A stretch of 64,000 nucleotides of DNA from Leucobacter rhizosphaerae (GTDB lineage: Bacteria > Actinomycetota > Actinomycetes > Actinomycetales > Microbacteriaceae), in the NCBI RefSeq assembly GCF_022919175.1, contig NZ_CP095043.1, positions 1,798,001 to 1,862,000 on the forward strand. Reading direction: 5' to 3'. The translations under genes were made by a program, and so were the position numbers. Position 1 is the first letter of the stretch; the number at the start of each line of letters is the position of its first letter. Below, in pieces: positions 15,230 through 26,881 of the stretch. Below the pieces are notes generated by a model. It saw nothing but the letters and a program-made list of their open reading frames with translations, did not search any database and was not told the origin of the DNA.

Positions 15230-15336
15230 GTCGTATTCCTCTCCGTCGCAGCGATCTCGCCGCGGTCCTGTTCGCCCGCGAGACTCCCGCCGGCCCCACC
15301 CACGCGCCCACCCGCCGTCAGCGTTAGGGTGTGTCC

Positions 15337-16302
15337 ATGAGCCAGCAGCCGATGAAGTTCCGCCTTCCGAACGTCACCGCAAAGCAATTGCTCCATTTCG
15401 TCGTCGCAGCGGAGTCCGGGAAACTCGCCGAGGCCGGCCGCACCCTGCGCATGGCACCCTCTGCGATCTCGCACTCCATCGATCAGTTGGAAGCCACCCT
15501 CGGCGTGCAACTCTGCGTGCGGCACAAGGCCAAGGGGCTCGTTCTCACGTCGTCGGGCGAGGCCGCGTTGACGGTCGCCCGCAATCTGCTCACCGACTTG
15601 AACGACTTCGAGACCCTGTTCGGAAGCGAGGGATACAGCAATTCCGGCCGAATCATCGTCGGCTGCAGCACCCCTATCGCCCCGAAGATGCTGCCGACGA
15701 CCCACAGCGACTTCGCGCTCAAGTTCCCCAACGCGACCGTCGCGTTCCTCGAGGAGCACCACGCGGTCCTCCAGGAGCAACTGCTGCAGGGGCGTCTCGA
15801 TCTCGCGTTCATGTACGACATCGACCTCGATCATCGTCTGGAGCGCATTCCGCTGATGACGATGACTCCCCGGGTCCTGTTGCCGGTCGATCACCCGCTG
15901 GCCGGGCCTGACACACCCGCAGTGCTGTCGCTCGAGATGGTGGCCGACGAACCCTTCGTGATCTTCGGCGGCACGCCGATGTACGAGCGCTACCTCAAGC
16001 TCTTCGCCGCCGAAGGGATCACCCCGAACATCGCCTACACCTGCCGCAGCATGGCCACCCTGCGTTCCTTCGTGGGCCGCGGCACCAATTTGGGCCTGCA
16101 GTTCGAGAACTACGGTCTCGCGATGTCCGTCGACGGCCTGGAGGTCGTGGCCAAACCGCTCGCTGCCGGCGCCGAGCAGTCGGTCAGCATCTGCATCGCA
16201 CTGCCACGGGATTCGAAGCCGAGTGTGCTCAGCCGGGAGTGGATCGTCTCGGCGAGAGAGATGTTCGGCGGCGGAGCCGAGGCCGCCGATGCTCACGTAT
16301 GA
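15337..16302 (+). CDS. LysR-family transcriptional regulator
   Basis: The 321-residue protein has an N-terminal winged helix (about residues 14-72, with LLHFVVAAESGKLAEAGRTL and AISHSIDQLEATLG) and a LysR substrate domain from about residue 98. The ATG at 15337 is preceded by AGGG at 7-nt spacing; a GTG 6 bp earlier is possible. It is divergent from the dehydrogenase at 14117-15229 and convergent with the one at 16331-17434, with 28 bp between stops. LysR proteins usually activate the divergent promoter in response to a pathway metabolite, so it most likely controls the dehydrogenase and M24 genes and perhaps the large operon as well. Confidence 0.9.
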   Translation: MSQQPMKFRLPNVTAKQLLHFVVAAESGKLAEAGRTLRMAPSAISHSIDQLEATLGVQLCVRHKAKGLVLTSSGEAALTVARNLLTDLNDFETLFGSEGYSNSGRIIVGCSTPIAPKMLPTTHSDFALKFPNATVAFLEEHHAVLQEQLLQGRLDLAFMYDIDLDHRLERIPLMTMTPRVLLPVDHPLAGPDTPAVLSLEMVADEPFVIFGGTPMYERYLKLFAAEGITPNIAYTCRSMATLRSFVGRGTNLGLQFENYGLAMSVDGLEVVAKPLAAGAEQSVSICIALPRDSKPSVLSREWIVSAREMFGGGAEAADAHV

Positions 16303-16330: not shown

Positions 16331-17434
16331 TCAATCGAAGACGATGACTGAGCGGGCGACCCCACCTCGGCGAAGTCTCTCGAACCCATCATTCACCTCG
16401 TGCAGTGCGATGCGGTTGGCAACGAGCGGCTCGAGTTGCAGCCGCCCTTGCAGATAGAGATCGGCGTATTCGGGGATATGCAGATGGGGGATCGAGGATC
16501 CCATCGCGACGCCGTGCACCGACTTCTGCGCGAAGAAGTGGCGGAACGGGATCCCGAGCACAGCGTCAGGCTTCTGCACCCCCACGAGATAGACCTGACC
16601 TCCGGTGCGGAGCGCGTCCAGGGCGGTGTCGAGCGTCTGAGGTAGCCCGATGACTTCGAATGCGTGCGAGACCCCCTCGCCGCCGTTCGCCGCACGCACC
16701 CTCGCGACGGGATCGTCCTCGCGCGCGTTGACGACGTCGGTGGCTCCGAGTTGCAGGGCCAGGTCGAGCGCTGCATCGTTCGTGTCGAGCCCGATGATCC
16801 GCCGAGCACCGGCGAGCCTCGCTCCCTGGATGGCGTTCAACCCGACCCCGCCGCATCCGACCACGAGCACCGAGTCGCCGTGCTGCACGCGAGCGGTGTT
16901 CAGTACGGCTCCCAGCCCCGTCGACACCCCGCACCCGAGCAGGCAGGCGATCTCGAACGGGACCTCCGCAGGAACGCGTACGACGAGGTTCTCGTGCAGC
17001 ACGGCGTGGGTCGCGAACCCGCCGATCCCGATGAACTGGGTTGCGGGAGATCCGCCGGACGTCACCCGAGCCGGGAGCCCCGCCGCACGCTGCGTCGCCC
17101 CGTGGTTCGAGCACTGGAACGGTCGCCCCGAACGACACGAGTCGCACCGTCCGCAATGGTTGACGGGGCAGCCCACGACGTGGTCGCCGACGCTCAGCCC
17201 CTGCACCCCGGCCCCGACCTCCTCGACCACGCCGGAAACCTCATGCCCGAGCAGGAGCGGCACGGGAAACCCGTGGTTCGTCGCGGCGACGGTCAGGTCG
17301 CTGCGGCAGATACCGCTCGCCCGCACTCGGATGCGCACCTCGTGACGCTCGAGCTCATCGAATCGGATCTCCTCGATCTGGAGCGGCCCGCCGAACTCGT
17401 GCAGCACGGCTGCGGTTGCAGTCATCTGACTCAT
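16331..17434 (-). CDS. Zinc-dependent alcohol dehydrogenase (MDR superfamily), second copy
   Basis: The 367-residue protein has the same architecture as the dehydrogenase at 14117-15229: catalytic-zinc ligands in GICRSD and LGHEVSG, structural-zinc cysteines in CGRCDSCRSGRPFQC, and the dinucleotide fold VGCGGVGLN followed by an Asp (IGLDTN). The start at 17434 lies 3 bp after the stop of the FMN monooxygenase gene, so the two are translated from one mRNA; an ATG at 17425 is an alternative. It is the last gene of the nine-gene minus-strand operon that starts at the MmgE/PrpD gene. It may handle the alcohol or hydroxymethyl product formed by the monooxygenase step. Confidence 0.92.
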   Translation of the reverse strand: MSQMTATAAVLHEFGGPLQIEEIRFDELERHEVRIRVRASGICRSDLTVAATNHGFPVPLLLGHEVSGVVEEVGAGVQGLSVGDHVVGCPVNHCGRCDSCRSGRPFQCSNHGATQRAAGLPARVTSGGSPATQFIGIGGFATHAVLHENLVVRVPAEVPFEIACLLGCGVSTGLGAVLNTARVQHGDSVLVVGCGGVGLNAIQGARLAGARRIIGLDTNDAALDLALQLGATDVVNAREDDPVARVRAANGGEGVSHAFEVIGLPQTLDTALDALRTGGQVYLVGVQKPDAVLGIPFRHFFAQKSVHGVAMGSSIPHLHIPEYADLYLQGRLQLEPLVANRIALHEVNDGFERLRRGGVARSVIVFD

Positions 17435-17437
17435 GCC

Positions 17438-18760
17438 TCAACTCCGCGCGATCACTGGTGCGGGGTCGTCGAGGCCCAGGTGGTCGCGGAGCGTGTCCCC
17501 CGAGTAGTCCTCGCGGAAATAGCCGCGCTCTTGGAGCTCCGGGATCAGCCGCTCGCACATCATCTGCATGCCTCCGGGCATGAACGGAGCGTTCACGTTG
17601 AACCCGTCGCACGCCCGGTCGTCGAACCAATCGATCATGTACTCGGCGGCCTGCCCCGGTGTGCCGATGAAAAAACCGTGGCCGGTGCCTCGGGCGTCCT
17701 CGATGATGAGTTCTCGCAACGTGAGCCCGTCGTCGAACGCTCGTCGCCGGAAGATCTCGGATCGACTTGTCGCGAGCTTCGCCGGGAACCGCTCGACCGG
17801 CACCCGGTCGTCGAGATCGACGCCCGTCAGATCGATGCGATGCGAGGCCTCGAGCTGCCGCACGCCGAACTCCATGTTCACCTGCGCAGCGAGGTGGTCC
17901 GCCAGCTCCTGGGCTTCAGCAACCGTATCCCCCATGATCGGAACGAGCCCGGGCAGGATCTTCACCTGTGCGGGGTTCCGCCCTTTCTCCGTGACGATCC
18001 GTTTATAGTTCGCGTAGTACTCCTGAGCGAGACGTTTGTCGGGCTGCGCCGTGTAGATGCAGTCCGCGAATGACGATCCCAGGTCGATCCCGGGACCGGA
18101 GGAGCCGGCCTGCACCAAAATCGGGCGCCCTTGCAACGACGGGCGCATGTTCAGCGGCCCCTGCACGGTGAAGAACTCTCCCCGATGATCGATGCGGTGC
18201 AGTTTTTCCGTGTCCGCCCACACCCCCGATTCCCGATCGGTGACCACGGCATCCGCGTCCCAGCTGTCCCAGAGCTTCGTCACGACATCGAGATACTCAG
18301 TGGCGCGGCGGTACCGGTCGGCGGGATCCGGCATCTCCTCGAGGCCGAAGTTGGAGTTGCCGCGGGAGCTCGTGACGATGTTCCATCCGGCCCGTCCGCC
18401 GCTCATGTGATCGATCCCGAGAATCTGGCGGGCCGTGTTGTACGGCTCGGAGAACGTCGTCGAGATGGTGCCGATGAGCCCGATCTTCGTGGTCCGAGCG
18501 GCAAGTGCCGCGAGCACCGTGACCGGCTCGTAGAGGCCGTTCATCTTCACATCGTTGCGCAGGATCGTGTCGGCGGTGACGATGTCGCCGAAGAACACGG
18601 CGTCGAGCTTCGCGGCCTCTGCCATGAGCGTGAGCTCCAGGACGAAGTCCAGGTAACCCAGTTCCTCGGCTCGACTGCCGGGGAGCCGCCAGCTGTCCTT
18701 GTGGTACCCGGCGGGCAGCATAAAGGTGGTGATGTTCATCTGTTCAGAGCGACGTTCCAT
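17438..18760 (-). CDS. FMN-dependent monooxygenase of the NtaA/SnaA/DszA family
   Basis: The 440-residue protein belongs to the bacterial luciferase-like group that includes nitrilotriacetate and EDTA monooxygenases, DszA and SnaA. Typical segments are MLPAGYHKDSWRLPGS near the N-terminus, FFGDIV, SEPYNTARQ, HMSGGRAGWNIVTS and RPILVQAGSS. These enzymes use FMNH2 supplied by a separate reductase to oxygenate C-N, C-S or ketone substrates. The reductase is very likely the fused protein encoded at 23848-24990 in the same operon. The ATG at 18760 is preceded by GAAGGACG; an ATG at 18739 is less well served. The substrate cannot be read from sequence; an importer of the sulfonate/nitrate type lies immediately upstream. 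Confidence 0.93.
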   Translation of the reverse strand: MERRSEQMNITTFMLPAGYHKDSWRLPGSRAEELGYLDFVLELTLMAEAAKLDAVFFGDIVTADTILRNDVKMNGLYEPVTVLAALAARTTKIGLIGTISTTFSEPYNTARQILGIDHMSGGRAGWNIVTSSRGNSNFGLEEMPDPADRYRRATEYLDVVTKLWDSWDADAVVTDRESGVWADTEKLHRIDHRGEFFTVQGPLNMRPSLQGRPILVQAGSSGPGIDLGSSFADCIYTAQPDKRLAQEYYANYKRIVTEKGRNPAQVKILPGLVPIMGDTVAEAQELADHLAAQVNMEFGVRQLEASHRIDLTGVDLDDRVPVERFPAKLATSRSEIFRRRAFDDGLTLRELIIEDARGTGHGFFIGTPGQAAEYMIDWFDDRACDGFNVNAPFMPGGMQMMCERLIPELQERGYFREDYSGDTLRDHLGLDDPAPVIARS

Positions 18761-18793: not shown

Positions 18794-19606
18794 TTAGTGG
18801 TGGCCGAGGAGCTCGAGGATTTGCGTCCGTGCCTGACCGAAGCGGGGATCCGCTTTGGTGGCAGCCTGATCCCGGTGGTCTCCGAAGTCGGTGTCGAGCA
18901 CGGTGACGACCGACGCGGGCTTCCCCGCGAGGACCACCACCCGGTCGGAGAGATACAGCGCCTCGTCGATGTCGTGGGTGACGAGGATGATCGTGAGACC
19001 CAAGCGCTTCTGTAGGTCGGCCACGAGATCCTCAAGGCTGAAGCGGGTCTGGGCGTCCACAGAAGCGAACGGCTCGTCCATCAGCATGATCTTCGCCTCG
19101 TACGCGATCCCTCGAGCGATCGCGACCCGCTGCTGCATCCCGCCCGACATCTCCCAGGGGTACTTCTTCCCCTGGCCCCCCAGGCCCACACTCGCGAGCG
19201 CCTCCTCGGCGAGCGCGAGGCGCTTCTTCTTGTCGAAGCGACCCTCGAGCGGGAACGCGACGTTCTCGATCGTGGTCATCCACGGCAGCAGCGACCTGCT
19301 GTAGTCCTGGAACACCACCCCGACGGACGGGTGGGGTTGGCGGATCATCTCCTCTTCGACATACACGTGACCCGCCGTCGGTTGAATCAGCCCGGAGAAG
19401 ATCCGCAGCAGCGTGGTTTTGCCGACCCCGGACGGGCCGACGATGGAGACGAACTCTCCCGCCTCCACCGAGAGGTTGAGGTTCTCGAGCACTCGGTTCT
19501 CGTGCTCTCCGCCGCCGAAGCGCATCGAGACCTGCTCGACGCGTACCGCGGGGTTGTCGTGTTCCCGTCGCAAGCTCGTGGGTTCCATGAGAGTCTCCGT
19601 GTTCAT
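18794..19606 (-). CDS. ABC transporter ATP-binding protein (SsuB/TauB type)
   Basis: The 270-residue ATPase has Walker A GPSGVGKTT, Q-loop FQDYSRSLLPW, signature EMSGGMQQR, Walker B IMLMDEPFASVD and the H-loop in VTHDIDEAL. The LPW and DEPF segments are typical of nitrate/sulfonate/taurine importers. The ATG at 19606 overlaps the upstream permease stop by 4 bp. It energises the pair of permeases encoded at 19603-21184 for the solute captured by the lipoprotein at 21224-22228. Confidence 0.93.
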   Translation of the reverse strand: MNTETLMEPTSLRREHDNPAVRVEQVSMRFGGGEHENRVLENLNLSVEAGEFVSIVGPSGVGKTTLLRIFSGLIQPTAGHVYVEEEMIRQPHPSVGVVFQDYSRSLLPWMTTIENVAFPLEGRFDKKKRLALAEEALASVGLGGQGKKYPWEMSGGMQQRVAIARGIAYEAKIMLMDEPFASVDAQTRFSLEDLVADLQKRLGLTIILVTHDIDEALYLSDRVVVLAGKPASVVTVLDTDFGDHRDQAATKADPRFGQARTQILELLGHH

Positions 19607-20370
19607 TTGGCCATCGCTCCTGATGTGAAGTACCACCGCAGTGGGATCCGCTCGATGCGGGAGAAAATGAGGGTGATCGCGTACCCGATGATCCCGACAA
19701 GCACCGCTCCGGCCCAGGTCTGCGCCATCTGGAAGGTGCTCGAGGAGTTGAGAATGTAGAAGCCCACACCGCGGTTCGCGGCGAAGAGCTCGCTGACGAC
19801 CATCACGGTGATGCCGATGGGCAGCGCCACTCGGATGCCCGCGAAGATCTGAGGCAGGGCGCCCGGCAGCACGACCCTGCGGAAGTAGCGAGCCGGCGGG
19901 ATGCGATAGACCTTGCCGAAGCGCCGGATCGTGGGTTCGATGCCCCGCACGCCGTCGATGGTGTTCAGCAGGATCGGGAAGACGCAGGCGAACGCGATCG
20001 TATAGATTTTCGGACCGGGACCGAGCCCGAACGTTCCGACGATCAGCGGCACCAGCGCCGCCTGGGGTACCGAGCGAGCGAAATTCACGAAGGGATCGAG
20101 CGCTTCGCGCAGCCACCGGATCTCTCCGATGAGCAGCCCGAGCGCCACCCCGATGACGATCGCGAACGTCAGGCCGAGGAGGAGGTTGCCGAGACTGAAG
20201 CCCAGGTACCCGATGAGCAAACCGTTAGCGAGGTCGCGCCAGAGCGTCTCGAGGATCGTGGCGAGCGGCGGAAAGAAGACGTTCTCGCTCCCCGCCGACG
20301 TGAACCACCAGAGCAGCACGAGCACGACGACCAGCCAGCACTTCTCGGCTGTTGTACGGATGAATCTCAC
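19603..20370 (-). CDS. ABC transporter permease (SsuC/TauC type)
   Basis: The 255-residue protein has about six membrane helices and the EAA loop visible in FGKVYRIPPARYFRRVVLPGALPQ, the standard SsuC/TauC layout. The start chosen is the GTG at 20370: it follows AGGAGG at 7-nt spacing, inside the last codons of the upstream permease gene. The longer frame to 20403 has no comparable site. The next gene in the operon is a second, divergent permease, so the pore is probably a heterodimer, unlike the homodimeric SsuC arrangement. Confidence 0.9.
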   Translation of the reverse strand: MRFIRTTAEKCWLVVVLVLLWWFTSAGSENVFFPPLATILETLWRDLANGLLIGYLGFSLGNLLLGLTFAIVIGVALGLLIGEIRWLREALDPFVNFARSVPQAALVPLIVGTFGLGPGPKIYTIAFACVFPILLNTIDGVRGIEPTIRRFGKVYRIPPARYFRRVVLPGALPQIFAGIRVALPIGITVMVVSELFAANRGVGFYILNSSSTFQMAQTWAGAVLVGIIGYAITLIFSRIERIPLRWYFTSGAMAK

Positions 20371-20371
20371 G

Positions 20372-21184
20372 CTAGGCCTCCTGTCGGTTCCACTTGAGTG
20401 CACGCGACTCCACGGCGGCGATGGCAGAGTTGAGCGCCCAGCCGACGAGGCCCGCGAAGATGATGTACGCGAATGCCACGTCCCAGCGCGATGCCTCTTG
20501 GGCCATCGTGATCTGGCGCCCCAGTCCGGGAGTCTGGCTCAGCACCCCGACTCCGACGGCGACCAGGATCGAGATCGACGCCGCGATCCTGAGCCCCGTG
20601 GAAATGAGCGGCAGCGCGCCGGGTACCGTCACTCGCCAGAATCTGCGGAGCGGCGAGATTCGGAACACGGCGACCGTATCGGCCACCGCCTGGTCCTGTC
20701 GACGGCTCCCGGCAATCGCTTGGATCAGGATCGGCCACAGGCAGGACAGGAAGACCATGAGGATCTCCATTCGCGCGTTGACCCCGATGACGAGCACGAT
20801 CACCGGCATGAGCGCCAGCATCGGGAAGGATCGTCCGAACTCGACCACCACCCCGACCGAGCGGGAGAGGAACCCGTTCGTGCCGATCGCGACGCCGAGC
20901 ACCACCCCGACGACGGCGGCGATGCCCCAGCCGGAGAACGCTCCGAAGAGCGTCTGCCCCACCGCGACCCAGAAGGCAGCGGAGAGGAGGACTGCGGCGA
21001 GCGCGGTCACGATCTGCCCGATATCGGGCGCGACCTCGGGGAGTGCTCCGCTCCAGTAGAGCAGTTGCCAGGTACCCGCGAGCACCACGAGCACCAGCAG
21101 ACGGGACAGGATCAGCCGGGCCCGGCGCGAGAGCCCCCTGCTCTTCGCACCGGGCACTGTGATCGGAATGGTGAAGGTCGTCAT
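20372..21184 (-). CDS. ABC transporter permease (SsuC/TauC type), second subunit
   Basis: The 270-residue membrane protein has the same fold as the permease at 19603-20370, including the EAA loop TVAVFRISPLRRFWRVTVPGALP. The two are only moderately similar by eye, which suggests a heterodimeric channel. It starts at the ATG at 21184, about 40 bp after the binding-protein stop, and its last codons contain the ribosome site of the next permease. Confidence 0.9.
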   Translation of the reverse strand: MTTFTIPITVPGAKSRGLSRRARLILSRLLVLVVLAGTWQLLYWSGALPEVAPDIGQIVTALAAVLLSAAFWVAVGQTLFGAFSGWGIAAVVGVVLGVAIGTNGFLSRSVGVVVEFGRSFPMLALMPVIVLVIGVNARMEILMVFLSCLWPILIQAIAGSRRQDQAVADTVAVFRISPLRRFWRVTVPGALPLISTGLRIAASISILVAVGVGVLSQTPGLGRQITMAQEASRWDVAFAYIIFAGLVGWALNSAIAAVESRALKWNRQEA

Positions 21185-21223: not shown

Positions 21224-22228
21224 TCATCGCAGTGGCGTTCCGCTCCACAGGATCTCTTCGATCGTCACCGGCTTCTGGACAATGCCGTAGGTCGAGAAGG
21301 CCTTGGCCTGCACCCCGGCCTGGGCCTCGTCGATCGCCACCGAAACGGGAATGAGCGCCTGCGCCGTGAGCGAGGCCCGGTCGACCTCGGAGATCTCCGC
21401 GGTGATGTCGAGGATGGCGTCGACGTTCGCGGGATCCTCGTAGAACGCCTGCGCCTTCTCCATCGCACGAACGAAGGCCGCGGCCGTGTCCTCGTTGTCG
21501 GAGACCCACTGCTTCGTCGCGGCCCACAGCGTGACGGGGGTGCCTGCCATGTACTCGGTGGACGGGTTTGAGACGAGGTGCACGTCATCCCGCGCCATGA
21601 GCTGCTGGTAGTACGGCGCGGAGGCCAGGACCGCGTCGATCGTCCCCTCGCTGAGCGCCGTCTCCATGCCGGTCGAGGCGAGCTCGACGCGCTCGATCGA
21701 CAGCGGATCGATACCGAAGTCCTCGGCTGCGAGGAACATCGGGATCTCGGATCCGGTGTTCAGGCCCTGGATCCCGACCGTGCGCCCCGCAAGATCTGCG
21801 GGCGTCTCGATGTCACTCGACGCGAGCGTGATGATTCCGGAGGTCGGGTTGTCCGGGCTCGTGTAGCCGTTGCCGGCGATGGTCACGATCGGGACTCCGG
21901 CCGCGGCCGAGGTGATCAGGGTGCCCAGCGATCCCGTCGTGATATCGACTTCTCCGCTGACCGCCCTGGCGATGTTCGAGGTCGGGTCGGCGCCGCGAAT
22001 AATCTCGACGTCCAGCCCCTCCTCCTCGAAGTACCCCTCACGGTCGGCGATATAGGCGGGCTCGAAGTGGATCGGGGCGACCACGAGGGAGAGCGGCGTC
22101 AATTCCGACGATCCCGCCCCTCCGGTCTCGGCAGCAGCGTCGCCGCCGAGCGGGTCTGCGCTGCAGCCGGCGAGCGCGAGCCCGGCAGCGGCGAGGACGG
22201 CAATGGTTCCGATCAGTCTCTTCTTCAT
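21224..22228 (-). CDS. ABC transporter solute-binding lipoprotein (SsuA/NMT1 type)
   Basis: The 334-residue protein has a lipoprotein signal with lipobox LAGC (Cys22) and an NMT1/SsuA-type body. Family features include IADREGYFEEEGLDVEII near the N-terminus, SGEVDITTGSLGTLI, and GRTVGIQGLNTGSEI. It binds an organic anion or heterocycle outside the membrane; known relatives bind sulfonates, taurine, nitrate, thiamine precursors or aromatic acids. AAGGAAG precedes the ATG at 22228 on its strand. It is the fourth gene of the minus-strand operon, 135 bp after the aldehyde dehydrogenase gene; a short hairpin in that gap (about 22242-22263) could modulate readthrough. Confidence 0.91.
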   Translation of the reverse strand: MKKRLIGTIAVLAAAGLALAGCSADPLGGDAAAETGGAGSSELTPLSLVVAPIHFEPAYIADREGYFEEEGLDVEIIRGADPTSNIARAVSGEVDITTGSLGTLITSAAAGVPIVTIAGNGYTSPDNPTSGIITLASSDIETPADLAGRTVGIQGLNTGSEIPMFLAAEDFGIDPLSIERVELASTGMETALSEGTIDAVLASAPYYQQLMARDDVHLVSNPSTEYMAGTPVTLWAATKQWVSDNEDTAAAFVRAMEKAQAFYEDPANVDAILDITAEISEVDRASLTAQALIPVSVAIDEAQAGVQAKAFSTYGIVQKPVTIEEILWSGTPLR

Positions 22229-22363: not shown

Positions 22364-23851
22364 TCAACCGTCGAGGTCGATCACGACGGTCTTGACCTCG
22401 GTGTACTGCTCGACGCCCTCGATGCCGTTCTCGCGACCAATGCCTGACTGCTTCACACCGCCGAAGGGAATGGCGGGGTCGATCCCGACCGCGCTGTTCA
22501 AGCGGATCGTGCCGGCGTCGATGCCGCGAGCCATGCGGAGCGCGGTGGTCATGTCGCGCGTCCAGACGGAAGCGGAGAGGCCGTAGTCGGTGTCGTTCGC
22601 GCGGTCGATCAGGTCCTCGATCGATGCCGAGTCATCGAATCGCTGCACGGCGAGCACCGGTCCGAAGATCTCCTCACGGGCGAAGCGCATCTCGGGTCGC
22701 ACGTCCGTGAACACCGTCGGGCGCACAAAGAACCCCGGCCCGTCGACGCCGCCGCCGCACTCGAGGGTTGCTCCGTCGGACTCCGCCGAGGCCACGTACG
22801 CCAAGACTCGTTCCTTCTGCACTGCCGAGATCAGGGGGCCGAGATCCGCGTCCGGCTCTCCGCCGACGCGAAGCGATTCAGCGATCCGAACGAGCCCTGC
22901 GACGAACTCGTCGTGGATGCGCTCGTGCAGAAAGAGCCGCGATCCGGCGGCGCACACCTGACCGCTGTTGCCGAAGACGCTCATGGCGGCAGCGGGGATC
23001 GCCCGCGCGAGATCCGCGTCCGCGAAGACGAACACGGGGGACTTCCCACCCAGTTCAAGCGAGCAGCGGGTCATCGTCGCAGCGCACAGCTGTCCGATCT
23101 CGGCTCCGACCCGGGTCGAGCCCGTAAAAGAGATCTTCGCGACATCGGGGTGCCGCACCAGCGCATCTCCGGCGACGGTGCCGAAGCCTGGGACCACGTT
23201 CACGACCCCGGCCGGAATACCCGCGTCGTGGATCAGCTCGGCGAACCGGAGCGCCGTGACGGGAGTCAGCTCGGAGGGTTTCAGCACGACCGTGCAACCG
23301 GCCGCGAGCGCCGCAGTCACCTTGTTCACGGCCATCGGCAGTGGCGCATTCCAGGGCACGATCGCGCCCACGACGCCGAGCGGCTGCCGCAGCGTCATCG
23401 CGTGCCACGTGCCGGGCCTCGACATGTCCCGTGTCTCGCCGTGCAGCCGCGTCGCCCATCCGGCGTTCGCGATGGCGGTCTCGGCGGCGTGAGCGACGTC
23501 GAAGGCCCGGGCGACTCCGAGCGGTTTGCCCGTGTTCCGGGACTCCATCAGCGCCAGTTCCTCGAGGTGCTCCTCGAGGAGCTCGCCGAGCCGGTGGATC
23601 AGTCGCCCGCGCGTCGCCGGAGCGAGCGCAGCCCAGGGTCCCCGCGCGAGGCGAGCTGCACGGACGGCATCGTCGACGTCCTCGGCGGAAGCGAGTTCGA
23701 CCTGCGCGAACGCCTCTCCGCTGCGAGGATCGATCAGGTCGGCTGGCCCCCCACGCCCCGCGACGAACTCGCCTCCGATGAACGGCCGCAGCGGTGACGC
23801 GAGGAATGCATCGGCACCGGCCTCGGCCGTTGCCGCGGTGATCCCGCTCAC
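22364..23851 (-). CDS. NAD(P)-dependent aldehyde dehydrogenase
   Basis: The 495-residue protein is a typical aldehyde dehydrogenase of the betaine-aldehyde/class-1 group. The cofactor region VPWNAPLPMAVNKVTAALAAGC, the general-base Glu in LELGGKSP and the catalytic Cys in GNSGQVCAAGSR are all present. It converts an aldehyde to its acid. The start is the GTG at 23851, overlapping the stop of the fused reductase-regulator gene by 4 bp; the open frame beyond it is antisense-like. In this operon it probably removes an aldehyde released by the monooxygenase or by the alcohol dehydrogenases. Confidence 0.93.
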   Translation of the reverse strand: MSGITAATAEAGADAFLASPLRPFIGGEFVAGRGGPADLIDPRSGEAFAQVELASAEDVDDAVRAARLARGPWAALAPATRGRLIHRLGELLEEHLEELALMESRNTGKPLGVARAFDVAHAAETAIANAGWATRLHGETRDMSRPGTWHAMTLRQPLGVVGAIVPWNAPLPMAVNKVTAALAAGCTVVLKPSELTPVTALRFAELIHDAGIPAGVVNVVPGFGTVAGDALVRHPDVAKISFTGSTRVGAEIGQLCAATMTRCSLELGGKSPVFVFADADLARAIPAAAMSVFGNSGQVCAAGSRLFLHERIHDEFVAGLVRIAESLRVGGEPDADLGPLISAVQKERVLAYVASAESDGATLECGGGVDGPGFFVRPTVFTDVRPEMRFAREEIFGPVLAVQRFDDSASIEDLIDRANDTDYGLSASVWTRDMTTALRMARGIDAGTIRLNSAVGIDPAIPFGGVKQSGIGRENGIEGVEQYTEVKTVVIDLDG

Positions 23852-24990
23852 ACCGAGCCTCCGTTGCTCTGCAGGAGTTCGCGCACCAGCGTTGTCGTCG
23901 CTGCGGCGTGCGCCTGCACCGCGCGGCAGGCCGCTTCCACGTCCCGGCGCTCCAGCGCCGCGACGAGGTTTCCCTGACTCGTGCCGTCGAAGAACTCGTC
24001 CCAGGCTTCCACGGGAACGGTGTGCGACCACACGGCCCCGATCCCCATGCGGTTAAACGCACGGGTCAGCTCGAGTGAACCGGCAAGGCCGGTGATACGA
24101 TCCTGCAGCATCGTGTTCAGATCGAGGAACTCGCGCATCGCTCCCGGGACCGAACGAAGCTGCTGCATGCGTGAGTAGATGTCCCTGATCTCGCGCGCGA
24201 CATCATCGGTGAGCGCACTCATTTGCGTCGTGAGCACTCCGCACTCGATGGCAGCGCGCCCCTCGACGCAGTCGCGCATGAGCTCCGCGGTAATGGGCAG
24301 GATCAAGATCCTATTGCCCGGTTCCACTGTGACCAGCCGATCGACAGCGAGTTTCGCGATCGCTCGACCCAGGGTTTCTCTCGAGAGTTCCAGGGCGCCT
24401 GCCACAAGGTCGAGGTCGATCGAGTCTCCGCGGAGCTCTCGATGCTCGAGCACCCACCGCCGGACGGTGAGGTACGCGTGCTCTTCTGCCTCGGAGTGGA
24501 ACGAGCCGAACGCACCCCGATAGTAGGTCAGCGGCTGGGCCGAAGACGCGCGCGCGTCGAGCACTCGTCCGAGGAATACCGTGTGCGTGCCTCCGGTCGC
24601 TTCTTCGTCGACCGAGCACACGATGCGTGCGAGCGCCCCCTCGAGCGTGGGCACACCGAGCACCTCTTCAACCGCGACACCCGCAAACTTGTCGTCGGAC
24701 TTCTTGGCGAAGCGGAAGGCAAGTTCGGTCTGTTCCGCGCTCAGCACATTGATCGCGAACCGCTGCGCGCGCTGCACCTGGTCGTGCGTGTGGCTCGAGC
24801 GATTCAGACAGACGAGCATCATGGGCGGATCCATCGACAGCGAGCTCACCGCGGACACGGTGGTGCCGAACGCGACCCCGTCGACCGTCGTCGTGACCAC
24901 CGCCACGCCACTGGCGAAGTGTCCGACGACGTGGCGGAAGACGTCGTCATCGACCCGGGGTTCCGCGTCGTCGAGTGCTGGGGTGCTCAC
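23848..24990 (-). CDS. Flavin reductase fused to a GntR/FCD-like regulatory region
   Basis: The 380-residue protein has two clear parts. Residues about 17-163 are a flavin reductase-like domain (HFASGVAVVTT, AVSSLSMDPPMMLVCLNRSS, FAINVLSAEQ), the type that supplies FMNH2 to two-component monooxygenases. Residues about 170-235 resemble a GntR winged helix, and 238-372 an FCD-type helical ligand domain, including RAAIECGVLTTQMS. Ordinary reductase partners are about 165-190 residues long and lack these parts. A frameshift artefact is unlikely because one frame is open throughout. It starts the electron supply for the monooxygenase at 17438-18760; the second half may bind DNA, bind ligand, or both. 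It lies 45 bp after the MmgE/PrpD gene. Confidence 0.88.
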   Translation of the reverse strand: MSTPALDDAEPRVDDDVFRHVVGHFASGVAVVTTTVDGVAFGTTVSAVSSLSMDPPMMLVCLNRSSHTHDQVQRAQRFAINVLSAEQTELAFRFAKKSDDKFAGVAVEEVLGVPTLEGALARIVCSVDEEATGGTHTVFLGRVLDARASSAQPLTYYRGAFGSFHSEAEEHAYLTVRRWVLEHRELRGDSIDLDLVAGALELSRETLGRAIAKLAVDRLVTVEPGNRILILPITAELMRDCVEGRAAIECGVLTTQMSALTDDVAREIRDIYSRMQQLRSVPGAMREFLDLNTMLQDRITGLAGSLELTRAFNRMGIGAVWSHTVPVEAWDEFFDGTSQGNLVAALERRDVEAACRAVQAHAAATTTLVRELLQSNGGSV

Positions 24991-25035
24991 GGGTGTGACT
25001 CTCTTTCTGTGGTGCGGGATGTGGGATGCGACGGG

Positions 25036-26436
25036 TCAGGCGATCAGCGCGACCAGCGCACGCATGCTGTCGAGATCCTCGAGGTGGTCGACGGCGTCCT
25101 GCACTCGTCGCGCGTCTGCAGTGGAGATCCGGCCGCCGAACTCGACGTTGAGGAAGAACTTCTCGGCCACCTGATCCCGTGTGAGCGGGTTCCGGTGCAG
25201 ATCCCCCAGTACAGCTTCGACCCTTGTGCGAAACGTCTCCCCCGAACGGGTCCGCACCACCGCTTCTGCGGTCTGGTACTCGTGCGGCGACAGACTGTCG
25301 ACGAGTGTGACGCGATCCAGGAGATCGCGCACCTCGGCGCGTGCCATGTACGCGGCGCTGAGATGCTCGGGACGGACGGTTCCCTCAAGAAGCCCGACCG
25401 CAACGTTGTAGGGAATGCTGAAGAGCCCATCCACCTCGGATCCCGGTGCAGCGGCGAACTCCTGTCCGGTGAAGCCGCGTTTGGTCGTCGGCGTCACGTG
25501 GATCTCCACGGCTTCGATGTCGCGCGCCTCGAGCCGATGGGCGTGCTTGAGACGAATCACCGCGTCCAGGGCGGGATGGGCGGCCCGGCACGACGCCCAC
25601 GGCTTGATGATCATGTCGCCGAAGTAGCTCCGGCCGAGATCCTCCAGCATCCGCTCCGGATGGGGGTCCGGGCTGAAGAGAGTGAAGAAACCGAACGAGG
25701 ACGTCAGTGCGTCGTGCACTCCCGAGAAACCCGCTGCGGCGAGATCCGCCGACACAACGGCGTTGCGCGCGGCCATCGCCTGCGGCAGTTTGAAGGAGGA
25801 GGCCTTGTCGAAGAGGTTCTGCACCGTTCCGGACATCTGGTTGAGCGCGTGTCCGAGCGCATCGCGATACTGCTGAGCACCGAAGCCGGCGAGCTTGCCG
25901 ACGATGGCGGCGCCACCCATCACGTTCACGGTTCCGGTGTTGTCCCCGCCGCTCGCGGTGTGGAAGCCGGAGGCAACGGCCAGTCTTGAAGCCAGATCAT
26001 CTCCGAGTACGAGCGCCTCGAGGAATTGCGCTCCGGAGGCGTCTGCCCGCTCGCTCGCGGCGAGGGCGACCGGGACCGTCGTGCCACTGATGTGCGCGGC
26101 CACCATATTCGCGTCGCCGGCTTCTGCGCCGACGGCCTCGAAGTCGTAGGAGCGCATGGACAGCGCGTTGAGCATCGCGGCGTGCGGGGCCGGGAGAGCG
26201 GTCCCCGTTCCGATGACGGTCGACTCGGCGCTGCCGCCGTACGAGGCGAACACCGACCGTGCAGCAGCGTTCCCTGTGGCGTCGACGCCTGCGAGGATGT
26301 TGCCGATGCTGTCGAGCACTCGCTCCTTGGCGCGTGCGATGGTGGCCTGCGGAATCATGGCGAGTGCCGCCTCTTCCAGATGAGATGCGATGACGCCCGC
26401 GTAGTCGCGGTCCGTGGACTCGATCTGCTGCTGCAT
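25036..26436 (-). CDS. MmgE/PrpD family protein
   Basis: The 466-residue protein matches the MmgE/PrpD family, with DSIGNILAG near the N-terminus, the central GGDNTGTVNVMGGAA region, and IKPWASCRAAHPALDA followed by VEIHVTP. Characterised members include 2-methylcitrate dehydratase, cis-aconitate decarboxylase and iminodisuccinate epimerase, so the fold serves several dehydration, decarboxylation or epimerisation reactions on polycarboxylates. No other methylcitrate-cycle gene is nearby, so a PrpD role is not supported. It is the first gene of the nine-gene operon ending at 16331 and stands directly behind the AT-rich inverted repeat at 26552-26573. Confidence 0.9.
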   Translation of the reverse strand: MQQQIESTDRDYAGVIASHLEEAALAMIPQATIARAKERVLDSIGNILAGVDATGNAAARSVFASYGGSAESTVIGTGTALPAPHAAMLNALSMRSYDFEAVGAEAGDANMVAAHISGTTVPVALAASERADASGAQFLEALVLGDDLASRLAVASGFHTASGGDNTGTVNVMGGAAIVGKLAGFGAQQYRDALGHALNQMSGTVQNLFDKASSFKLPQAMAARNAVVSADLAAAGFSGVHDALTSSFGFFTLFSPDPHPERMLEDLGRSYFGDMIIKPWASCRAAHPALDAVIRLKHAHRLEARDIEAVEIHVTPTTKRGFTGQEFAAAPGSEVDGLFSIPYNVAVGLLEGTVRPEHLSAAYMARAEVRDLLDRVTLVDSLSPHEYQTAEAVVRTRSGETFRTRVEAVLGDLHRNPLTRDQVAEKFFLNVEFGGRISTADARRVQDAVDHLEDLDSMRALVALIA

Positions 26437-26551
26437 GTGTGCGCACCTTTCCTCGGCGGCACCATTGCCGGCGGGCTCTCATGGCCTCTGGTGGGCCGAT
26501 GATCCTCAGTCTTCCAGGAGCAGACGGTCTCGAAAAGACTGATGTTTTGGA

Positions 26552-26573
26552 TCAATAAGCTCAAGATTATTGA
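26552..26573. promoter_or_regulatory. Candidate operator of the catabolic operon
   Basis: The arms tcaataa (26552-26558) and ttattga (26567-26573) form a perfect 7-bp inverted repeat with an 8-bp spacer. They lie about 115 bp upstream of the MmgE/PrpD start in unusually AT-rich DNA. The dimensions would suit a LysR- or GntR-type dimer, so both the LysR protein (15337-16302) and the GntR-like half of the reductase fusion are candidates. Confidence 0.45.
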
Positions 26574-26710
26574 GGTTATCCGCGTGAGCTGCACCGACGT
26601 CTCGGTCGCCCGGGCCCAACCCGCTCCCGAGCAAGCAATGCCCTCCCGGCTCACGCCCCGCCCATCCTGGCTCCTCACCCCCGCGGCCCCCGCGGCACCC
26701 GGCCCCCCGC

Positions 26711-26833
26711 GTGAGCGATTTCGGGGGCGCCCCGTCCACTTTCACAACAGAACGCGCTCACGCCCCCTCGCTACGGGCGTCGCGTGAGCGATTTCCGGGG
26801 CGCACGGCGCGCGTCAGCACAGCATTCGCTCAC
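26711..26833. repeat. Pair of 50-51 bp inverted-repeat elements (copy pair 2)
   Basis: Elements at 26711-26761 (51 bp) and 26784-26833 (50 bp) begin with gtgagcgatttc[c/g]gggg and end in ..cgctcac. They match copy pair 1 (12610-12733) in unit length, gap (22 bp here, 23 bp there) and parts of the interior, such as the GGGGCGC-like stretch and acag before the closing arm. The closing arms are less perfect here (acgcgctcac, attcgctcac). Confidence 0.75.
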
Positions 26834-26881
26834 GCCCAAAAAGAGGAGCGAGGGGTGGGAATGCAAAGCAGGCGCGGAGGA

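Follow-up and report, generated by a model that had tools for sequence, protein, structure and literature searches.

Within a 64,000-nucleotide stretch of the Leucobacter rhizosphaerae genome (contig NZ_CP095043.1, positions 1,798,001 to 1,862,000; the whole stretch is referred to as the window), a 380-residue protein is encoded that carries, behind a flavin reductase domain and in one reading frame, a GntR-type winged helix and an FCD domain. This fusion is real and recurrent, and it most likely represents a regulator captured to serve as a switch on the enzyme, akin to C1, the reductase of p-hydroxyphenylacetate 3-hydroxylase (HPAH) from Acinetobacter baumannii, but with a different regulator fold. 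By analogy with C1 we propose, with a probability of about 0.6, that the GntR/FCD half acts as a ligand-sensing allosteric switch on the enzyme and not as a gene regulator. An earlier note on the same DNA had suggested that one protein could supply reduced flavin and also sense a ligand or control the operon; the analogy lends support to combined flavin supply and ligand sensing, and the data discussed below speak against control of the operon.

The three-domain architecture that had been read from the open reading frame (ORF) is borne out by the ORF itself, by Pfam and by the predicted structure. The match to Flavin_Reduct (PF01613) scores 140.5 bits (curated cut-off 27) and that to FCD 32.2 bits (cut-off 24.3), while the GntR DNA-binding domain reaches 20.9 bits, below its cut-off of 27. 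Despite this sub-threshold score, the winged helix, on whose presence the earlier reading depended, is complete in the model. A chance or broken ORF is ruled out by the finding of both Flavin_Reduct and FCD in all 120 homologues listed, of 280 at E ≤ 1e-20. An antisense ORF opposite the fusion gene (24223-25989, plus strand) was set aside.

DNA binding by the fused family as a whole appears unlikely because the arginine pair, column 203 and the charge of the winged helix differ from those of stand-alone regulators; in the window's own subclade it may have been retained (see below). The comparison is based on an alignment of 88 fusions, i.e., 78 from relatives' loci including the window and 10 from genome scans of the phylum, order and family (a partial locus, L088, being excluded), with the 20 other FCD proteins of the window's genome (21 matches, one of which is the fusion). 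Published passages on NanR include Arg69 and Arg73 of the recognition helix among its likely base contacts (PMC8012715), and these residues were assigned to fusion columns 204 and 208 by alignment spacing. An arginine is found at column 208 in 19 of the 20 controls versus a single fusion of the 88 (L062, not the window's), and the combination of Arg or Lys at 204 with Arg at 208 in 14/20 versus 0/88; the window protein has R204 and a glycine at position 208. Column 203 holds Ser, Gly or Ala in all 20 controls and Asp or Glu in 69/88 fusions, and the mean net charge of the winged helix is +0.7 in the former and −2.8 in the latter (Mann-Whitney p 2.5e-8, related rows not being independent). The Arg-Gly of the wing (Arg in 12/20, Gly in 18/20 controls) is replaced by Asn-Arg in the window protein.

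Transcription of the operon is most likely controlled separately from the fusion, by the LysR-type protein encoded at 15331-16302. LysR control is likelier because of a LysR-type palindrome, whose core also lies at LysR genes in related operons, and the lack of a FadR-type site. The palindrome, ATAA-N-CTCAA-N5-TTGAG-N-TTAT, reads T-N11-A, which we take to be a LysR box. It is the sole match in the window even at three mismatches and has none in 100 shuffles, but the pattern was written from the site itself, so that the count demonstrates uniqueness only. A single copy of the core TCAA-N5-TTGA is present in the window (expected 0.08). This core is found at the LysR gene start, defined as the interval from −400 to +150 bp relative to the called start, in 4/12 LysR loci (L010, L020, L028 and L073; about 0.01 expected in each from the locus's own core density) and is absent at the other eight, the window's included; the genera of these four loci are close kin, and they therefore provide one line of support, not four. 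In L074 the core lies 61 bp into the locus, where, as judged from the letters, the LysR start seems to have been called too far upstream. Among the regions preceding HpaB, MmgE or NtaA genes, the core was seen only in those of L020, L073 and the window. In L020 (3334 and 932) and L073 (3352 and 950) it precedes both the LysR and the NtaA genes and is likely a LysR regulon box in these Micrococcaceae relatives. A broader scan of 11 loci for CAA-N5-TTG palindromes (8 or more of 10 arm pairs) found four, two of them at LysR starts (L020, L073). No FadR-type TNGT-N0-3-ACNA pattern occurs in 26437-26881. Near the 78 fused loci, separate regulators are encoded in a LysR cluster (12/78, confirmed as LysR on the window member) or are of the PucR type (15/78). 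In the intergenic segment 26708-26880, words like GCGTGAGCGATTTC are also repeated in both direct and inverted orientation.

These data bear on the suggestion that the protein has two jobs, as reductase and as DNA-binding regulator of its own operon. The complete winged helix of the model would fit such a role, as would R204 and R209, kept in 8/9 and 9/9 members of the window's subclade, and a recognition helix charge of +2 in the window protein (control mean +1.5, fusion mean +0.3). We nevertheless consider it improbable, given that R208 is absent in the window protein and 87/88 fusions (0/9 in the subclade), that the wing has changed, that 26437-26881 holds no FadR-type site and that the LysR gene and palindrome account for control. 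Slightly less credible still is a trigger enzyme restricted to the window's subclade, in which the re-wired arginines R204 and R209 would grip DNA while the metal-free Asn-Gln-Gln-His pocket is empty, and a pathway compound would cause release and flavin work, such that one ligand event switches enzyme and operon.

Evidence for a sensing role comes from the FCD domain. In passages of the literature, FCD regulators such as TM0439 and LldR are described with a three-histidine metal site (His134, His174 and His196 in TM0439; PMC4746285). When columns 296, 339 and 361 are equated with these histidines by spacing, all three are His in 16/20 stand-alone controls versus 29/88 fusions, and the window protein has Q296, Q339 and H361; the middle column is the least certain, with His in 9/55 in one alignment, of 55 fusions, and in 33/88 in the separate alignment of 88. 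Column 292 is Asp or Asn in 16/20 controls and Asn in 82/88 fusions. The resulting signatures differ among subclades: bacilli and most HsaA-type loci show NHHH, most LLM-type loci NHQY, loci with HpaB and MmgE NH[IV]H, and the window, L009 and L030 NQQH. The last is kept in 9/9 members of the window's subclade, where FCD identity is 50-68%. Residue R245, near the start of the FCD domain, is Arg in 54/55 fusions; from sequence it would be equivalent to CitO Arg97 and NanR Arg128, which, according to passages on these regulators, bind their ligands near the FCD start. We read the fusion pocket as a putative metal-poor ligand site tuned to each clade's pathway. A database copy of the window protein (P0001) differs from it solely in having Ile in place of Asn341, which adjoins the pocket residue Q339.

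The same residues help in weighing two other roles for the C-terminal half. Known structures of FCD bundles and of reductase barrels show dimers, and the half could be only a dimerisation part, or a part for docking to the oxygenase, that senses no ligand; R177 and Y173 (55/55) and W330 (54/55) could form an interface. Such a role is rather unlikely, as the invariant NQQH of the subclade and R245 resemble a kept ligand site, and some bacilli have this operon type but no GntR/FCD half. Alternatively, flavin, NAD or the redox state could be sensed instead of a pathway compound, in which case a common signal would explain why the fusion is found near four oxygenase types; this is highly improbable, as pocket residues differ among subclades with different neighbours in the manner expected for different ligands.

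The closest functional parallel to an on-enzyme switch is C1. In the available passages on this enzyme, its C-terminal domain inhibits flavin reduction and 4-hydroxyphenylacetate relieves the inhibition (PMC10816480), and passages elsewhere mention a regulatory domain of such kind in general terms (PMC11795597, PMC6165268). In C1 (PDB 5zc2, 5zyr) the extra domain is a MarR domain, in the place of which the window protein has GntR and FCD; against the equivalog for C1-type HPAH reductases (NF045919) it scores 110.8 bits, far below the cut-off of 340. Because the reductase half of C1 falls outside the 97-row clade of the fused family (support 99), the two fusions look as if they arose separately, with the caution that C1 sits on a long branch. 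The earlier statement that reductase partners normally lack such parts holds for PheA2, HpaC, StyB, HsaB and other short flavin reductases, which share the catalytic domain with the fusion and have no regulator half, but not for C1. Compared with the GntR/FCD regulators TM0439, NanR and CitO, the fusion has a broken arginine pair, an altered metal-histidine set (N/Q/Q/H) and an enzyme domain in front. A partial counterpart, WP_012623561.1 on plasmid pACHL02 of Pseudarthrobacter chlorophenolicus A6, also joins a flavin reductase to a GntR-like winged helix (21.7 bits, below the cut-off), but it has 259 residues and no FCD match; by context, and from passages of PMC3975901, it is probably CphB of the 4-chlorophenol cluster. 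The partial locus L088 in Arthrobacter nitrophenolicus seems to encode a similar reductase.

In the proposed mechanism, the reductase half would reduce flavin with NADH and supply it to the NtaA-type monooxygenase encoded in the operon. The winged helix, off DNA, would pack on the reductase or its dimer and keep flavin reduction slow until the FCD pocket (N292, Q296, Q339, H361 and R245, the last at the apparent carboxylate-binding place of FCD regulators) is occupied by a substrate or product of the pathway. The ligand-bound helical bundle would then shift the winged helix and flavin reduction would accelerate, an arrangement that would spare NADH and avoid peroxide when there is nothing to oxygenate. 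If this is true, flavin reductases captured regulator folds on two or more occasions (MarR in C1, GntR/FCD here) as on-enzyme switches, and there would be a rule by which two-component monooxygenases, when substrate is lacking, are kept from wasting NADH and forming peroxide. The family would also allow direct tests on one operon type that occurs naturally both with and without the fusion, and it would provide ready-made ligand-gated reductases for biocatalysis.

A number of observations weigh against such a switch. Much of this pattern would also be expected of a half with a purely structural or dimerising role, and with a predicted template modelling score (pTM) of 0.61 the relative packing of the reductase and GntR/FCD halves is not fixed by the model. 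The loss of DNA-contact residues is incomplete: R/K204 is kept in 29/88, Arg226 in 24/88 and Gly227 in 34/88 fusions, and the window protein belongs to the less degraded ones, with Ser203-Arg204, Arg209 and the subclade features noted above. The stand-alone control is limited to 20 proteins of one genome, and the three-histidine set is still present in 29 fusions. Pocket signatures follow the tree, so that their tie to oxygenase type is no independent proof; 15/78 fused loci have none of the four oxygenase clusters in the flank examined. Furthermore, it is not certain that bacilli lost the half, as the forced changes number two in one tree and one in the other (see below).

The fusion, which had been thought possible in related genomes, does recur there. 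Relatives' loci, from Actinomycetota and Bacillota, are the best 80 of 153 from a genome scan, and among these five are unfused and one (L088) is partial. The fusion is sporadic in the phylum, order and family samples, where 5/396, 2/396 and 10/398 genomes, respectively, match at E ≤ 1e-40 (the window's genome counted each time) and in 3 of the 10 family genomes (L123, L126, L127) the matching reductase is unfused. Among the 40 nearest-relative genomes, full-length fusions are found in two others of the genus (two in G004, one in G011). Four of 72,556 plasmid records match at E ≤ 1e-30 (query P0098), one with a full-length fusion. A search for a close stand-alone relative of the C-terminal half (query residues 165-380; 3138 candidates, E ≤ 1e-3) yielded only P0012, itself a two-domain protein. 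In a reductase-domain tree of 103 rows, made by a quick method, 88 fused and 9 unfused proteins form one clade (Shimodaira-Hasegawa-like approximate likelihood ratio test, SH-aLRT, 99). The fused/unfused label needs four changes (shuffled mean 14.2), of which strongly supported branches force at least two; with four PDB reductases added and L092 omitted, four are again needed and strong branches force only one. The partial L088 was left out of both trees. The simplest reading is one fusion event and about three losses of the GntR/FCD half, likely in five bacilli (four Bacillaceae, one Fictibacillaceae), in L118 and in three genomes of the window's family; the sample was picked with patterns from fused proteins, and unfused forms are therefore under-sampled. 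An HpaB gene lies right behind the short reductase (165-171 residues) in four of the five unfused bacilli, as in fused bacilli, but not in L077. No description of a GntR- or regulator-fused flavin reductase was found in the literature searched, mostly by titles and abstracts with few subscription papers; for SadC of sulfonamide degraders, a candidate for a characterised member, the passages of two papers give no domain structure.

The operon (Table 1) runs leftward with the fusion second, in the order MmgE/PrpD, fusion, aldehyde dehydrogenase, binding protein, two permeases, ATPase, NtaA-type monooxygenase and alcohol dehydrogenase; the fusion gene is 45 bp from its upstream neighbour and shares a 4-nt stop/start overlap with the downstream one. 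That an FMN-dependent monooxygenase belongs to this operon, as claimed before, is confirmed, and the enzyme is likely the oxygenase partner of the fusion.

Table 1. Coordinates of the features discussed, in the window unless a locus is named (ABC, ATP-binding cassette).
Feature	Coordinates	Strand	Basis or remark
Flavin reductase - GntR winged helix - FCD fusion gene, 380 aa	23848..24990	-	ORF, Pfam, predicted structure
Flavin_Reduct domain of fusion, residues 23-163	24502..24924	-	
GntR-like winged helix of fusion, residues 170-229	24304..24483	-	Pfam below cut-off, model secondary structure, alignment to TM0439
FCD domain of fusion, residues 243-363	23902..24264	-	Pfam E 1.6e-7; pocket N292, Q296, Q339, H361
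25-bp palindrome, T-N11-A core (LysR-box type)	26555..26579	+	about 120 bp upstream of first operon gene
MmgE/PrpD-family gene, directly upstream of fusion	25036..26436	-	first gene of operon
Aldehyde dehydrogenase	22364..23851	-	likely start overlaps fusion stop by 4 nt
ABC solute-binding protein, NMT1/THI5-like	21224..22228	-	profile match 4.9e-32
Two overlapping ABC permease genes, 19603-20403 and 20372-21184	19603..21184	-	BPD_transp_1 2.6e-22 and 5.5e-17
ORF, second half an ABC transporter ATPase	18794..20116	-	ABC_tran residues 210-351, 3.2e-31; true start further in
NtaA/DmoA-family FMN-dependent monooxygenase	17438..18760	-	TIGR03860 465 bits, cut-off 280
Zinc-type alcohol dehydrogenase	16331..17434	-	
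LysR-type regulator gene	15331..16302	+	HTH_1 2.3e-14, LysR_substrate 2.3e-27
WP_012623561.1 reductase in pACHL02 catabolic cluster	L128:5953-6732	+	

The same fusion is found beside NtaA-type genes elsewhere. Among the 78 fused loci, in which calling of the reductase ORF was forced and oxygenase clusters are named from one representative each, the flanks contain HpaB in 31, LLM-class enzymes in 19, NtaA in 16 (counted within about 8.5 kb of the fusion) and HsaA-like, acyl-CoA-dehydrogenase-type enzymes in 8; 11 of the 16 NtaA-containing loci also contain HpaB. Arthrobacter sp. Edens01 (L030) has, by cluster label, a set similar to that of the window: NtaA, binding protein, permeases, ATPase, MmgE and fusion. 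An MmgE cluster is present in 19/78 loci, and the gene order HpaB-type oxygenase, MmgE, fusion in 17 loci besides L030.

A Bacillus-type operon, seen in L035, L036, L039, L041, L044, L052, L055, L066 and L076, combines the fused reductase with an HpaB oxygenase, an FAD-synthetase-like protein, Rid and DUF1028, and thus has its own flavin-nucleotide gene. Divergent from the reductase in many bacillus loci is a gene of cluster 19 (12 loci), e.g., L039:5278-6603 (minus strand), whose 441-residue product has no Pfam match above cut-off and a weak helix-turn-helix hint at residues 380-412. The window's genome also encodes a second longer flavin reductase of 351 residues (L092:6888-7943, plus strand; G000 contig C1:2379387-2380442), which consists of a reductase domain and about 160 further residues that match no Pfam family; beside its gene lies a divergent stand-alone GntR/FCD gene.
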